Virus record (IMG/VR): IMGVR_UViG_3300029319_000196
Coordinates: 1 to 35,331 of that record
DNA: 35,331 bases
Source: a virus
Direction: 5' to 3' (one strand)
A program made the translations under genes and the position numbers. Within the stretch, counting starts at the first letter, position 1. Each line of letters opens with the position of its first letter. This document shows, piece by piece, positions 3,629 through 9,358 of this stretch. Under the pieces are notes generated by a model. That model had not been told where the DNA came from and searched no databases. It was given only the letters and a program-made list of their open reading frames with translations.

Positions 3629-4540
3629 ATGCCTACCCCAAAGTCAGTTTCTGATATAAAATCAAATCTATTAAGACCTGCTTTAACGTCTCACTTTGAA
3701 GTAAGTATTGGAGTACCTGCGTTTCTATCTGGATCTATGGATAGTTACACTCAAGAGAGATTGCATTTGCAGTGTTCTGATGCATCATTACCAGGATCTA
3801 GATTAGCAACGTTTGAAATCAATAATGATCACCATGGCGTCACTGAACGACATGCATATAGAAGACAGTTTGATGATAGAATTGATTTGACTTTTATGGT
3901 TGATGCTGATAATTATTGGCCAATCAGATTTTTCGAGACTTGGATGAGAGGTATTGTTGACGAAGATGATCTAGATGAATCTAGTGAAACAGATTCATCT
4001 GCTAGAAATTATTTTTATAGAGTAAAGTATCCAGGAGGCGAAAAAGGATATTGCACTGATGGATTAGAAATCACAAAATTTGAACGTGATTATGAAACTA
4101 ATTTTTTGACATATAAATTTATCAAGGCATATCCGTTTAGTATTAATTCTATACCAGTGACATACGATGGATCTAATCTTTTAAAATGTACGGTTGGATT
4201 TAGTTACGTTAGATATATTACCGACAAATCAGTTTATGAAAAACCACAAGTAGAACCTTCACCAATACCTGCTCCAGGAGTTCCAGTTCCACCAATAGTA
4301 TCTAATAGAAGAGAAGATCTTGATATATGGGCATTGACAAATCGTGGTATGATTGGAAGCGTAGGAACCGAGGCACAGAAAAATCTTCTTGCAGATGTTG
4401 ACAGATATTATAATACAGGAACGAGACAAAATCGGTTACAAAGTCTTTCTCGAAGTGGAGGTTATAGATCAGGAACTGGTGGAGGATACAAAGGAGTTGC
4501 TATGCCAGGTCTCACTTTAAACTTCAAAGAAATACAATAA
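3629..4540 (+). CDS. gp54: Tail-tube-fold protein, probably gp54 baseplate tail-tube initiator
   Basis: Predicted to start tail-tube polymerisation on the hub. The 303-residue product resembles tail-tube proteins: a Ser/Leu N terminus (IKSNLLRPALTSHFEVSIG), a segment with CSDASLPGS, RQFDDRIDLTFMVD and YWPIRFFETWMRGIV, a central TKFERDYETNFLTYKFIKAY, and NLLKCTVGFSYVRYI, which is typical of the tube-fold final strand. A Pro-rich linker (about residues 209-222) and a Gly/Ser/Arg-rich tail follow. T4 gp54 is 320 aa. It is first in the + strand hub operon, divergent from gp4. No clear Shine-Dalgarno precedes the ATG, as for gp4. It could instead be another tube-fold paralogue. Confidence 0.6.
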   Translation: MPTPKSVSDIKSNLLRPALTSHFEVSIGVPAFLSGSMDSYTQERLHLQCSDASLPGSRLATFEINNDHHGVTERHAYRRQFDDRIDLTFMVDADNYWPIRFFETWMRGIVDEDDLDESSETDSSARNYFYRVKYPGGEKGYCTDGLEITKFERDYETNFLTYKFIKAYPFSINSIPVTYDGSNLLKCTVGFSYVRYITDKSVYEKPQVEPSPIPAPGVPVPPIVSNRREDLDIWALTNRGMIGSVGTEAQKNLLADVDRYYNTGTRQNRLQSLSRSGGYRSGTGGGYKGVAMPGLTLNFKEIQ

Positions 4541-4569: not shown

Positions 4570-5289
4570 ATGCCTTTACCAAAGATTGCTACGCCAAAGT
4601 ACGAACTCGAATTGCCTTCGACTGGAAAAACGATTCAATACAGACCTTTTCTTGTAAAGGAAGAAAAACTCCTTGTCATTGCATTAGAAAGTGAAGATAC
4701 GAAACAAATTACTACTGCAATTAAATCAGTAATCAAAAATTGTATTTTGACTAGGGGAATTAAAGTAGAAGATCTCCCGACATTCGATATTGAATATCTT
4801 TTCTTGAATATTCGTGGTAAATCGGTTGGAGAAGAAATTGATGTTAATATCATTTGTCCTGATGATGAGAAGACTGAAGTATCTGTAAAAATTAATCTCG
4901 ATGACATTAAAGTAAACAAAGAAAAGAATCATACAAATAAAATTAAATTAGATGACTCCATCATGATGGAAATGAAGTACCCATCATTAGAACAATTCAT
5001 TAAGAATAATTTTGATTTTGATAGTAAGAGTGCAATGGATCAATCATTTGAATTGATCGCATCTTGTATCGGTACAATCTATACTGAAGAGGAAGCTTGG
5101 TCTACTGCAGATTGTACTAAGAAAGAAATAACAGAATTTTTAGAGTCCATGAATTCTTCTCAGTTTAAACAAATTGAAAAATTCTTTGAAACTATGCCAA
5201 AACTTTCTCATACTATTAAAGTTAAGAATCCAGAAACAAAGGTTGAGAGTGAAGTTGTTCTTGAGGGATTAGCAAGTTTTTTCGCTTAG
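4570..5289 (+). CDS. gp26: gp26 baseplate hub assembly protein (tail-assembly-chaperone-like)
   Basis: T4 gp26 is needed for hub assembly. The 239-residue product starts MPLPKIATPKYELELPSTGK and carries RPFLVKEEKLLVIALESED, IKVEDLPTFDIEYLFLNIR and GEEIDVNIICPDDEK. These are hallmarks of the T4 gp26-type family, whose T4 member is 208 aa. AGGA at 4562-4565 gives a short-spaced ribosome site. The last codons are AGT TTT TTC GCT TAG: the T TTT TTC heptamer with a downstream hairpin predicts a -1 frameshift giving a 301-residue extended product (see 5277-5317). That arrangement directly before tape-measure-like genes mirrors the G/GT tail-assembly chaperones of lambda-type phages, so this protein may chaperone the two proteins that follow. 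Confidence 0.85.
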   Translation: MPLPKIATPKYELELPSTGKTIQYRPFLVKEEKLLVIALESEDTKQITTAIKSVIKNCILTRGIKVEDLPTFDIEYLFLNIRGKSVGEEIDVNIICPDDEKTEVSVKINLDDIKVNKEKNHTNKIKLDDSIMMEMKYPSLEQFIKNNFDFDSKSAMDQSFELIASCIGTIYTEEEAWSTADCTKKEITEFLESMNSSQFKQIEKFFETMPKLSHTIKVKNPETKVESEVVLEGLASFFA

Positions 5290-5317
5290 CCCTCGTTCAC
5301 ATGAGTTTAGAGGGTTA
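5277..5317 (+). other. Predicted -1 programmed ribosomal frameshift site at the end of gp26
   Basis: The heptamer T TTT TTC (5277-5283) is in the X XXY YYZ register of gp26. Slippage by -1 continues CGC TTA GCC CTC GTT CAC ATG with no stop and enters the small ORF in frame, giving a 301-residue fusion. A stem forms between TAGCCCTC (5287-5294) and GAGGGTTA (5310-5317), 8 pairs with one G-U and a 15-nt loop. The GC core CCCTC/GAGGG begins 6 nt after the heptamer, a usual spacing for a stimulatory structure. The small ORF has no Shine-Dalgarno. Confidence 0.72.
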
Positions 5318-5474
5318 CTATAAATTAAATTTTGCCTTAATGCAGTACCATAAATACTCATTAACGGAGATTGAAAATCTAATTCCGTGGGAAAGAGACA
5401 TTTATGTAGCGTTGCTAGAGCAACATCTTGAAGAAGAAAAGTTAAAGCAGCAGGCATCTAATGGATCTAGATGA
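5301..5474 (+). CDS. Small ORF, likely C-terminal extension of gp26 made by -1 frameshift
   Basis: The ORF encodes 57 residues starting MSLEGYYKLNFALMQYHKY, followed by SLTEIENLIPWERDIYVALL and a charged helix ending KLKQQASNGSR. The pattern of a short helix, a turn and a PWERDIYV segment resembles the T part of GT-type tail-assembly chaperones and the small baseplate-hub ORFs that follow gp26 in related phages. The bases before the ATG (CGCTTAGCCCTCGTTCAC) contain no ribosome binding site, whereas the frame joins gp26 without a stop. It is therefore probably translated mainly as part of a gp26 fusion, or by coupling across the 11-base gap. It overlaps the next gene by 14 bases. Some annotations may call such ORFs gp51; the similarity to T4 gp51 is not evident to me. 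Confidence 0.7.
   Translation: MSLEGYYKLNFALMQYHKYSLTEIENLIPWERDIYVALLEQHLEEEKLKQQASNGSR
5349..5356 (+). promoter_or_regulatory. Possible internal late promoter box ahead of the tape-measure-like genes
   Basis: CATAAATA matches seven of eight bases of the T4 late box. It lies within the small ORF, 104 bases before the next ATG. Being intragenic in AT-rich coding sequence, it may be fortuitous. Confidence 0.25.
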
Positions 5475-7578
5475 ACTTCTTAAATCGATAAGGGAAGAAG
5501 GTGAACCCAAGGGCGGACAGATAATTGCAGCCAAAAAGTTTTTTGGTGAGGATAAGTATGACAAATATTATCAAGAACTATTATCAGAGGGTAGAATTGA
5601 AGGGGATAATTTATCACCCCAAGAAAGAAAAGAAGGCGTAAAGGCATATAAAAAAAGTAAGGTAGATTTTGAGACCTTTGTTAATAAAGTTACAGATAGA
5701 AAAAAGCAAGTTAATGTTAGTAAAGTAAACTCAACAAAATCTCTTAATAGAGGTGGAGCACTTGTAGTATCTAAAAGTTCTCAAATACAAACAAGTTCTT
5801 TTTTCAATAAAGAAGAAGAATCTGCAGAAAATATAGATGACATTCTTAAAGGTATTGATTCAATTATTGAAACTTTACGGAAAGAAGAATCTTTAAAGAA
5901 AAAGGCATCAGATGAAGAAAGAAAACGATCAGAAAGACAAGGTAGATCGGCAAAAGAAAAAAGATTAGAAAATAATACATTCAAAAAATTCGCTGAATCT
6001 ACTAAAAAAGTATTGGAACCAGTGAAAAGTATATTTGATAAACTATTTAATTTTATATCACAGATTTTAATTGGAAATGTTTTAACGAAAATAGTTGATT
6101 GGTTTAGCGATGAGGGCAATAAACAAAAACTTAGTGCAATAGGAGCATTTTTAGAGAAGACTTGGCCAGCACTTTTGGGAACGTATCTATTATTTGGAAC
6201 TAGTTTGGGTAGGTTTATCGCTAGAATAACTGGAATGACTTTGAGATTTATCCCAAAGTTGGCGTTGGCGTTTGCTAGGTTAGTTGCGGCACATCCATTA
6301 GCAGCTGCTGCAATTGGTGTAGGTGCTCTTGGTGTTGCTGCTGTGATGCAAAATCAATCAGGAACTGCAGTGATAAAAGATCCTGAGGATCCAGAAAAAT
6401 CTCAAATGGACGAGACAAGAGAATTTGGAGGAATGACTGGCGCTCCAATTAGTGCAGATATGTTAGGTTTTAGTGGAGGTGGAGAAGCACAAGGAACTGA
6501 TGTTATTCCTGCAATGCTTACTCCTGGAGAATTTATTATGAGTCGCGGAGCTGTTGATGCTTATGGACTCGATTTTATGGAAGGAATTAATGCATCTGCC
6601 GGTGGCACAAATAGACCGAAAAGGATGGGAGGCACTACCTATGCGGCAGGTGGTGGTTCTATAGATGAAATGTCTAGACAACAGCAAGCTGCTATGGAAA
6701 GTAGAAGACAAAATAATAATAGAGAATGGTGGGATTTCTTAGGATTGGCAGGAACTGGTAATAAAGCAAAAAGTTCAGAGGGAAATGGTCTTAGGGGTTT
6801 AACCGCTCAAGATTATAGAGATCTTGCTTTTATTGTAAGTGCTGAAGCGCAAAGAGGAACAGATGATGAATATGGAGTTGCAGCAGCTATTTTGAATAGA
6901 GTTGCCGATCCTTCATGGCCAAATACTATTAAAGCAGTTGGATCTCAAGCGGGACAATTTGAAGCAGTATTTACTGGTAAGGCATATGATGATCCCGCTT
7001 TGGCTGAAAAACTAGCTTCTGAAGAGGGTCAAAGAAAAATTGCAGGTGCATTGAATAAACTTCAAGGAAGAACAGATTTTAAAGGTACTAGTCAGTATGC
7101 AAATATGGGTCAGGGTGATATTAAATTTTCAAGTAGAGGTAATTTCTATCACTATAAAGAACAGGTTGGAAAGAATGATCCTCCACCTTCACCACCACCT
7201 TCTTACTATAAAAAGTTCGTTGGTCCAGGTGGATCAGGTATAACATTAGCAGGAACTAGTTCTTCTGGTGCCTCATCCTCAGCAAGTGGCAATACTAAAA
7301 AAACAGATTGGTCCAAAGTAAAAGGAATTGGTGGTGCATTTGAATCTGTATCTGGGACGAATAGAGGAATTGCATCAGGAAAAATTGGTAATACATCACC
7401 GAAATTGAATATACCAGCACCTCCGCCTGTGAGGTCTGGTCCTGCAGTTTCTACAGTAAGTCAATCAGAATCATCTTCTGGCGATTCGCCATTAGGACCA
7501 AATTCTAATTACATACCGCCTATTCCAATTCCACCTCCTTCGCTTTCTAAAGCAAAGATTCTAGGTGTATCTATTTGA
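5461..7578 (+). CDS. Tape-measure-like hub protein with SleB-type cell-wall hydrolase domain
   Basis: Probable internal tail/hub protein that helps open the cell wall. Residues 1-190 are charged and probably coiled-coil. Residues about 190-300 are hydrophobic (IFDKLFNFISQILIGNVLTK, PALLGTYLLFG, a long Ala-rich segment), typical of tape-measure proteins. A GGGEAQGTDVIPAMLTPGEF motif lies near 339-358. Residues about 445-575 look like a SleB/Hydrolase_2 domain: DLAFIVSAEAQRG with candidate catalytic E462, then GVAAAILNRVADPSWP and GQFEAVF. The C terminus is Pro/Ser-rich. It is a paralogue of the next gene (shared LVVSK and FD-x-L/I...GN-x-LT segments). The position after gp26 is that expected for gp29, which is 590 aa in T4, but the correspondence is uncertain. 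Confidence 0.75.
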   Translation: MDLDELLKSIREEGEPKGGQIIAAKKFFGEDKYDKYYQELLSEGRIEGDNLSPQERKEGVKAYKKSKVDFETFVNKVTDRKKQVNVSKVNSTKSLNRGGALVVSKSSQIQTSSFFNKEEESAENIDDILKGIDSIIETLRKEESLKKKASDEERKRSERQGRSAKEKRLENNTFKKFAESTKKVLEPVKSIFDKLFNFISQILIGNVLTKIVDWFSDEGNKQKLSAIGAFLEKTWPALLGTYLLFGTSLGRFIARITGMTLRFIPKLALAFARLVAAHPLAAAAIGVGALGVAAVMQNQSGTAVIKDPEDPEKSQMDETREFGGMTGAPISADMLGFSGGGEAQGTDVIPAMLTPGEFIMSRGAVDAYGLDFMEGINASAGGTNRPKRMGGTTYAAGGGSIDEMSRQQQAAMESRRQNNNREWWDFLGLAGTGNKAKSSEGNGLRGLTAQDYRDLAFIVSAEAQRGTDDEYGVAAAILNRVADPSWPNTIKAVGSQAGQFEAVFTGKAYDDPALAEKLASEEGQRKIAGALNKLQGRTDFKGTSQYANMGQGDIKFSSRGNFYHYKEQVGKNDPPPSPPPSYYKKFVGPGGSGITLAGTSSSGASSSASGNTKKTDWSKVKGIGGAFESVSGTNRGIASGKIGNTSPKLNIPAPPPVRSGPAVSTVSQSESSSGDSPLGPNSNYIPPIPIPPPSLSKAKILGVSI

Positions 7579-7588
7579 GGATTGAAAA

Positions 7589-9358
7589 ATGGCAATTAGT
7601 ACTCAAAAGTTTTTACCTCAAGCAAAAAATAGTTCTCTAGTAGTTTCAAAACCAACTGCGGTGAGATCTATTGGATCTTCAGTATCTAATAAAAAAACGT
7701 TTGTTATAAAGGAAAAAGTTATAGAGATTGATAAGATATTAAAAGGTACTCTTGCATCCGAAAAGAAAGAAATAGATAGTAAAAAGAAACAAGATGAAAA
7801 AGAAAAACGTCAGAATGCAGAAAAAACTTTAGAAACTTCTGAAGAAAAGAAATCTAAAAAAACTAAATTACAAATTCCTAAAGTAAAATTTTTTGATAGA
7901 ATTAAAGATTTTTTTGGAAATATTTTGATGGGATTTATTCTGACTAGACTAATAGAATATGCTCCCATCATTGAAAGATTTTTACCAATAATCAAAAATA
8001 CTTTTAACTTTATAACAGATTTTGTTATTGGAATTATAGATGCTTTAGGTACTTTTTTACTATGGGGGCAGAAGGCCATTGACGGCACAAGAAACTTTAT
8101 TGGCGATAAGTTCGGAGACGATGCAGTAAAAAATTTTGATGCTCTTGGAGATAATTTATTTAAACTTTTGAATGCAATTGTTTTGATAGGTGCCGCATCA
8201 GTAGCAATGCGTGACCCAAGACCTAGAAGTCGAACTCGTATAAGAGAACCAGTAGAGGAGGCTTTTCGGCAGAGAGGTAAAAAAGGTCCACCAGGAACTA
8301 CCTCTCGTGGTGCAGCAATAAGATATGCTCGACGATATGGTCAGAGAGCAGCAACAAGAAGATTTGGTAGACAAGCAGCACAATCACTGGCAGCAAGAAC
8401 ATTAGCAAAAAGATTTGTTAGTCCCTTTGTTAAGAGAATACCAATCCTTGGTGGATTAATTGATTTTGCACTGAATTACTTTGTATTTAAAGAACCAGTA
8501 GGAAGAGCAGCATTCGCAGCAATTGGTGCTACAATTTTTGGTGCTCTCGGTGCTACTGCTGGATCTATTATTCCTGTTGCAGGAAATTTTGTTGGTGGTG
8601 CGTTGGGTGGTCTTGCTGGTGATATTGCAGGTAAATGGTTATATGATACATTCTTTGACAAGAAAAAACCTGTAGAGGATCTTGATGAAGAACCTAAAGA
8701 TTATACTCGCGCAGGAACTAATAAGGGAATTCCATCTGGATCAGCAACAAATCTTGCTGGTGAAGCAGGAAAATATATACAATCAAAACTTTCGACTCCA
8801 AAAGACTATCAAGCAATTACAGAACATCCTGATTTTGGCGGAATAAGAGGGAAACACTCTGCAAATTCTTGGCACTATAAAGGTAGAGCACTTGATATTG
8901 GTGCTTGGACATACGAACAAGGTCCTATCTTAAAAGTAATTGAAGACTTCAATAAAATGAAGGGAGTTTCTCCAGTAGAACTTATTCATGGTGGAACTGA
9001 TCCTGCTGGTCATGGAGACCATATTCATGTGGCATATGCAAAAGGTGGCGAAACCCTAGGATATCCTCACCTTGCTATGCTTGGCGAAGAAGGAAAAGAA
9101 ATTGTTATTGATGCTGACAGTCAAGGACCTGCTAGAGATATGTTACTTGCGATCAACCAAGCAAAGGGATATGATGCCGTCATGCAGGCGATACGAGATT
9201 ATGCTCCATATGAGGCATTATCCTCACAGGTTGTTATTGTAGAAAAAATAAAAGAAGTAGTAAAACAAACTCCATACAGTGAAAAATCTTCCATGTATCC
9301 TAATTTTAGTGCATCCAGATCTGAGGATCCTTTTGAGTTCCTCGCTTCTCAAGGTTAA
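7589..9358 (+). CDS. Tape-measure-like hub protein with M15-type peptidase domain (possible gp29 equivalent)
   Basis: Second of two tandem tape-measure-like proteins, 589 aa, almost the length of T4 gp29. Residues 1-95 are lysine- and glutamate-rich and likely coiled-coil. FFDRIKDFFGNILMGFILTR (about 105-125) aligns with the preceding protein. An Arg-rich stretch and then Gly/Ala membrane-like helices (about 285-350) follow. Residues about 400-490 look like an M15 D,D/L,D-peptidase: H423, SWHYKGRALDIG with H429 and D436, and HGDHIHV with H475, D477, H478 and H480 as possible zinc ligands. A KGGE...HLAMLGEEGKEIVIDAD motif then recalls tape-measure C termini. GAGGA-like GAGGA/GAGGATTG at 7577-7584 is the ribosome site; the gap to the upstream stop is 10 bases. 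Confidence 0.72.
   Translation: MAISTQKFLPQAKNSSLVVSKPTAVRSIGSSVSNKKTFVIKEKVIEIDKILKGTLASEKKEIDSKKKQDEKEKRQNAEKTLETSEEKKSKKTKLQIPKVKFFDRIKDFFGNILMGFILTRLIEYAPIIERFLPIIKNTFNFITDFVIGIIDALGTFLLWGQKAIDGTRNFIGDKFGDDAVKNFDALGDNLFKLLNAIVLIGAASVAMRDPRPRSRTRIREPVEEAFRQRGKKGPPGTTSRGAAIRYARRYGQRAATRRFGRQAAQSLAARTLAKRFVSPFVKRIPILGGLIDFALNYFVFKEPVGRAAFAAIGATIFGALGATAGSIIPVAGNFVGGALGGLAGDIAGKWLYDTFFDKKKPVEDLDEEPKDYTRAGTNKGIPSGSATNLAGEAGKYIQSKLSTPKDYQAITEHPDFGGIRGKHSANSWHYKGRALDIGAWTYEQGPILKVIEDFNKMKGVSPVELIHGGTDPAGHGDHIHVAYAKGGETLGYPHLAMLGEEGKEIVIDADSQGPARDMLLAINQAKGYDAVMQAIRDYAPYEALSSQVVIVEKIKEVVKQTPYSEKSSMYPNFSASRSEDPFEFLASQG

Follow-up and report, generated by a model that had tools for sequence, protein, structure and literature searches.

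Frameshifting as a means of making a tail assembly chaperone in a short and a long form is treated here as known in principle. The P2 chaperones E and E+E' are produced in this way from a U-rich slip site, like that of the locus described below. T4-like chaperones were reportedly the subject of work by Vladimirov, Gautam and Davidson in 2022 (Virology 566:9-15), which probably covers the principle; given that paper, the statement of the initial annotation that it knew of no description for a T4-type gp26 is weaker than was thought. Our literature search found no slip site described for a cyanophage gp26, which does not show that the site is unpublished; what is added here is this locus, its breadth and its statistics. 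According to a review of frameshifting (PMC5009743), long-tailed phages "except T4" widely conserve the G-T frameshift, the lambda model has the short part bind the tape measure and the extension bring in tube subunits, and the lambda chaperones are absent from virions. A similar case is phage Adele of the Vandenendeviridae, for which PMC12846349 infers a -1 frameshift because a polyT slip site is conserved and no stop interrupts the -1 frame; it differs in belonging to another family and in its invariant GTTTTT, compared with T TTT TTC here. In T4 itself, gp26 and gp51 are both listed as hub assembly chaperones in PMC3004832.

The DNA analyzed here, referred to as the window, is an entire IMG/VR virus record of 35,331 bases. 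We computed the anatomy of the gp26 junction, its conservation, the coding of the -1 frame from the slip site on, the selection on RNA folding and the homology of the predicted fusion with gp51. Judged from these sequence comparisons, gp26 and the small ORF downstream of it very probably form one recoded gene, expressed by a programmed -1 frameshift as a chaperone pair of the G/GT type; the initial annotation had proposed this interpretation, which we retain as the best explanation. The features concerned are the following.

3629..4540, + strand: upstream protein with a tail-tube fold (PF23849 Phage_TTP_2, E 3e-16; phrog_45 tail tube, E 1e-32)
4570..5289, + strand: gp26, 239 aa, predicted to be the tail assembly chaperone in its short form (PF12322, E 1.3e-77; phrog_150, E 2.7e-83)
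5277..5283, + strand: slippery heptamer T TTT TTC in the gp26 register, from the sequence; the same heptamer occurs in 224 of 230 non-identical loci
5283..5474, + strand: predicted -1 frame extension, gp51-like C-terminal part, 63 codons and stop, from the -1 reading and a PHROG match
5287..5317, + strand: stem-loop, putative frameshift stimulator; 5287-5294 pairs with 5310-5317, -11.4 kcal/mol
5301..5474, + strand: small ORF, 57 aa if begun at the first ATG, which is not conserved and is preceded by no Shine-Dalgarno-like motif
5461..7578, + strand: downstream tape-measure-like ORF, 705 aa (Pfam Hydrolase_2, a cell-wall-hydrolase domain, E 3.3e-8)

The gp26 gene is flanked by the gene of the tube-fold protein on its 5' side and by the tape-measure-like ORF on its 3' side, the identities of these as major tube protein and tape measure being putative. 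The closest gp26 among the phage records listed is that of the cyanophage Synechococcus phage SynMITS9220M01 (85.8% identity). By analogy with other records, in which gp54 precedes gp26, the product of 3629..4540 is possibly gp54-like. A tape-measure role for 5461..7578, whose start overlaps the end of the -1 extension, is suggested by its position and composition; its matches to PHROG tape measure families are weak (E 2.5e-4 and 1.2e-3). This ORF and the next one (7589-9358, 589 aa) stand in tandem and are paralogous, with 31% identity over approximately 160 residues near their N-termini (E 1e-8). Each of them looks tape-measure-like; the hydrolase domain lies in the first.

The last codons of gp26 read AGT TTT TTC GCT TAG, with the stop at 5287-5289, and the in-register heptamer is thus found two codons ahead of the stop, where the initial annotation had seen it. 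Read from 5283, the -1 path begins with RLALVHMSLEGYYKLNF... (RLALVHMSLEG...) and is free of stops for 63 codons until 5472-5474, which bears out the claimed continuity into the small ORF. The predicted fusion joins 4570..5283 to 5283..5474 and has the 301 residues given for it earlier. Against the PHROG families, its extension gives a match to the "baseplate hub assembly catalyst" phrog_634 (gp51-like; E 6e-29) and another, within the gp26 family phrog_150, to positions 240-281 of 282 (E 1e-5). As had been noted, no Shine-Dalgarno sequence is seen before the ATG at 5301 in the window. Trypsin is predicted to release VESEVVLEGLASFFR and LALVHMSLEGYYK from the window fusion, the latter being diagnostic for the 301-aa product, whereas the zero frame would give VESEVVLEGLASFFA and an independent start MSLEGYYK; the junction peptide proposed originally, FFRLALVHMSLEG, contains an Arg, so that trypsin would cut inside it.

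The conservation of the junction was analyzed in a set composed of the window together with named phages and with IMG/VR contigs retrieved by gp26-based queries. From 256 records, T4 (L084) was left unscored, because the strand retrieved for it is the one opposite to gp26, and 25 duplicates, defined by identity over the last 300 nt of gp26 and the next 120 nt, were removed to leave 230 non-identical gp26 loci. The sample is not random, each scan having contributed its 80 best loci, and the loci are related, so that locus counts are not independent. When one distant protein served as the query (Vibrio XZ1 or Stenotrophomonas Moby), two loci were obtained in either case, and one scan (A1) used peptide patterns that included both Phe-Phe pairs, as amino acids and not as codons. 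A T6N heptamer is present in register in 226 of the 230 loci, as TTTTTTC in 224 and as TTTTTTT (L228) and TTTTTTG (phiM9, L088) in one each. Loss of the heptamer or of -1 continuity in relatives had been named beforehand as refuting the frameshift; the heptamer is exactly kept in these 224 loci, and the -1 path is open in all 223 that could be tested. When the loci are clustered at 50% identity, at least one member carries the heptamer in 13 of 16 clusters and every member in 12. Carriers belong to the Kyanoviridae, the Straboviridae (Angelvirus, Schizotequatrovirus), the Pootjesviridae, Menderavirus and Otagovirus, together with Xanthomonas phage X1; within the Pootjesviridae the slip site is TTTTTTC in OLIVR5 and TTTTTTG in phiM9. 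We regard this conservation across relatives as the decisive evidence for the frameshift.

The codon, reading-frame, shuffle-folding and helix analyses were carried out on the 226 T6N loci. The codon before the Phe-Phe pair ends in T in all of them, as the choice of T6N loci requires, compared with 142 of 226 expected from codon usage; this T and the first Phe codon are fixed by that choice, although it excludes no more than four loci. For the second Phe codon, 224 of the 226 use TTC, and codon usage within the same genes predicts TTT TTC for 21% of Phe-Phe pairs. Among the 225 other Phe-Phe pairs of these genes, seven are TTT TTC, none is T TTT TTC and 152 are TTC TTT. Silent sites of the flanking codons vary freely on both sides of the heptamer, and the gp26 stop may be TAG, TAA or TGA.

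The four loci without T6N are PS49 (L098), Vibrio phages D509 (L087) and VAP7 (L100), and L106. In PS49, a member of the Tevenvirinae, gp26 has no T6N and a second PF12322 gene is present. In D509 and VAP7, gp26 has no T6 heptamer and the -1 ORF begins at a TAATG overlap; some relatives must therefore do otherwise, possibly by another route to the second product. L106, an IMG/VR contig near Stenotrophomonas phage Moby, has T5 at the slip site, which shifts gp26 to another frame, and the near-identical Moby has T6; the T5 is either genuinely mutated or the result of misreading the homopolymer in sequencing.

Past the slip, all 223 testable loci have a stop-free -1 path of 56-69 codons, and three more run off the contig. 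Past the gp26 stop the median open length is 12 codons in frame 0 and 8 codons in frame +1. Conservation at the protein level begins directly after the slip and before the usual ATGs, with the pattern R-[ILV]-[AGS]-[ML]-x-H. The extension is matched by 556 records of the phage collection; in a spread sample analyzed by tblastn, the match starts at residue 1-3 in 58 of 60, upstream of the ATG at residue 7.

The stem-loop is the weakest of the four signs on which the initial annotation had relied, the others being the heptamer, the open -1 path and the missing Shine-Dalgarno sequence. In the window its arms are TAGCCCTC (5287-5294) and GAGGGTTA (5310-5317), and the CCCTC/GAGGG core does begin 6 nt past the heptamer, as had been described. 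Compared with dinucleotide shuffles, however, the stretch after the heptamer (z -2.34) folds no further below expectation than those at +45 (-2.35) and +60 (-2.02), and synonymous recoding in the -1 frame gives z -3.5, against -2.8 for the window's own +45 control. Over the 226 loci, 45-nt stretches beginning 0, 4 and 8 nt past the heptamer have mean z values of -1.6 to -1.9 against dinucleotide shuffles, compared with -0.8 to +0.4 for the ten other starts tested. Synonymous recoding in the -1 frame, applied to representatives of clusters at 80% identity, gives a mean z of -2.2 (n=107) and control values of -0.44 and -0.39 (n=105 each), which are also slightly off zero. Folding downstream of the slip site is selected across the locus set, and the individual pairs are not conserved. 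Indeed, no shared structure and no consensus pairs were found by RNAalifold in 49 loci chosen by hand from the 107 representatives, because the loci pair in different registers; sorting the 226 loci by their best helix gives several registers that differ by clade, and 49 of the 226 have no run of at least six pairs in the tested stretch. We therefore claim selected folding and not a single consensus stem for all relatives. Apparent covariation within the group of loci pairing in register 42 (pair 14-28: T-A 20, G-C 6 and A-T 2 of 30) was discounted, the sequences having been picked for pairing there. Thus what stands of the proposed stem-loop is its GC core in the window and the selection on folding, whereas its exact pairs are not shared by relatives.

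In-register heptamers as such are common: the 22 genes that we picked from the ORF list of the window (10,964 codons) contain 73 of the form X XXY YYZ, seven of them T6N, and one might suppose that a chance heptamer happens to precede a chance open frame, or that the window was wrongly assembled. However, just three of the 73 fall within the last 10 codons of a gene, and only that of gp26 has a -1 path of at least 90 nt beyond the stop of its gene. A comparable site in the neighbouring gene served as a negative control: an in-register TTTAAAC, which lies six codons ahead of where 3629-4540 ends, was considered as a second frameshift and rejected, since just 3 of 138 loci have it, one of them the window, and it is probably there by chance. 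Against this value, the 224 of 230 loci with the gp26 heptamer, named isolates among them, refute chance and assembly error, to which we give a negligible probability. The homopolymer at the junction could also act during transcription, slippage of RNA polymerase on the T6 run giving a mixed mRNA pool from which the fusion would be translated. Six T are short for transcriptional slippage in bacteria. Such a process leaves little room for a run that measures exactly six T in 225 of the 226 loci (T8 in one) and does not drift to longer lengths, for a fixed codon register, or for folding that is selected just downstream; we consider it highly improbable.

Only marginally less improbable, in our estimation, is that the small ORF is a separate gene, translated without any frameshift by reinitiation or translational coupling at the nearby ATG (5301). 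Depositors have annotated a separate CDS in most of the 22 records that we inspected, and a joined CDS at this junction in none; moreover, some distant relatives have start codons that overlap or touch the gp26 stop. Candidate starts are frequent within the extension too, codon 4 being ATG in 119 and codon 7 in 116 of the 226 loci. Yet codon 4 is Leu in 99 loci and codon 7, where not Met, is mostly E, N, T or D, and since both positions vary away from Met, neither Met is kept as a start. An ATG is missing from the first 15 codons of the extension in 52 of the 226 loci, and 28 lack GTG and TTG there as well; a conserved independent start, which the initial annotation had named as refuting its proposal, is not seen. 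A Shine-Dalgarno-like motif precedes the first early ATG in only 3 of 174 cases, compared with 94 of 223 gp26 starts. The residues ahead of the ATG are conserved as protein, and a separate gene would leave the frozen heptamer unexplained. The ORF at 5301..5474 is thus probably not an independent gene. Among the deposited records, those of ACG-2014g (L101), syn9 (L090) and phi-pp2 (L097) have CDSs of 31, 47 and 39 aa, respectively, that start inside the extension, which suggests a misannotated frameshift product.

We also compared gp26 with known chaperones. No solved homologue of gp26 was found by sequence with an E-value better than 0.48. An AlphaFold2 model of gp26 (pLDDT 86) was aligned by VIA-align, with the HK97 tail assembly chaperone 2OB9 at rank 1 (Z 7.9, rmsd 4.2, over 84 residues, all in the N-terminal domain); 3FGX (Z 7.8) and YqbN 3KLU (Z 7.2) take ranks 2 and 3. 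Foldseek returned no significant match, the HK97 chaperone coming second with E 0.92 and probability 0.72. The N-terminal domain as modeled would resemble the HK97 chaperone, which is supportive only, as Z values below 8 are middling and one domain is concerned; any class likeness to lambda G/GT would be that of this N-terminal domain to the HK97 chaperone (Z 7.9). The window gp26 also differs from lambda G/GT in having, after the N-terminal domain (about residues 1-88), approximately 150 further residues before the slip site.

Both parts of the predicted fusion are homologous to the T4 gp26/gp51 family (PF12322, phrog_150, phrog_634). T4 gp51 (249 aa) itself belongs to phrog_150 along almost all of its sequence, and it also matches phrog_634. 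In a single comparison of the fusion profile with a gp51 profile built from T4 and PS49, positions 12 to 284 of 301 were aligned, across the slip junction, with E 1.5e-12. The extension profile by itself matches gp51 residues 200-245 (E 1.8e-5), whereas with T4 gp26 it gives a four-column alignment only, which is no real match. The likeness to T4 is therefore that of a common gp26 family (PF12322/phrog_150) in which the predicted fusion resembles gp51 nearly from end to end and the short form resembles gp26. The difference is that in T4 the two forms are separate, divergently placed genes, the extension belonging to the second gp26-like gene, and that T4 gp26 ends with GAG TTC TTT GAG TTA CTA TAA, which holds no slip heptamer. 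Counting PF12322 genes in 18 complete phage records gave one in 16 and two in T4 and PS49 (Karamvirus). In T4 and PS49 the extension match sits in the same ORF as the second PF12322 copy; 14 of the 16 phages with a single copy have exactly one extension match, directly after gp26, and the same profile found no extension match in D509 and VAP7. From these comparisons, T4 appears to encode as two genes what other phages would make by frameshifting.

We infer the slippage of the ribosome, the ratio of short to long form, the role in tail assembly and the binding partners from the above and from the described systems. Most ribosomes would stop at 5287-5289 and release the short chaperone of 239 aa. 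In a minority, both Phe tRNAs on U UUU UUC would slip back by one base and re-pair on UUU UUU, and these ribosomes would continue from 5283 to 5474 to give the 301-aa long form; the stem-loop just downstream may assist the slippage. In line with the homology to T4 gp26/gp51 and the analogy with lambda G/GT, the short part may bind the tape measure protein, and tube subunits may be recruited through the C-terminal extension.

As regards the history of the locus, we somewhat favour a scheme in which the recoded single gene is ancestral in the T4 superfamily. The Tevenvirinae would have lost the signal and, by duplication and in-frame fusion, acquired gp26 and gp51 in its place, so that separate expression and no longer the ribosome would control the short-to-long ratio, whereas in the recoded lineages the slip site would have stayed frozen while the hairpin was rebuilt in different registers by clade. 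The direction of change is read from the distribution of the two arrangements, in which the Tevenvirinae are represented by two phages only.

Taken together, these results indicate that the marine relatives of T4 and several other T4-like lineages keep the frameshift signal, and that their predicted product has its in-frame equivalent in T4 gp51. If this is true, the entries named "gp51, baseplate hub assembly catalyst" in many cyanophage records are the tail of a gp26 fusion and not a gene, which would explain the inconsistent starts or omissions of the depositors. The superfamily would then offer a natural comparison between branches that set the chaperone ratio differently, one through recoding and another through two genes.
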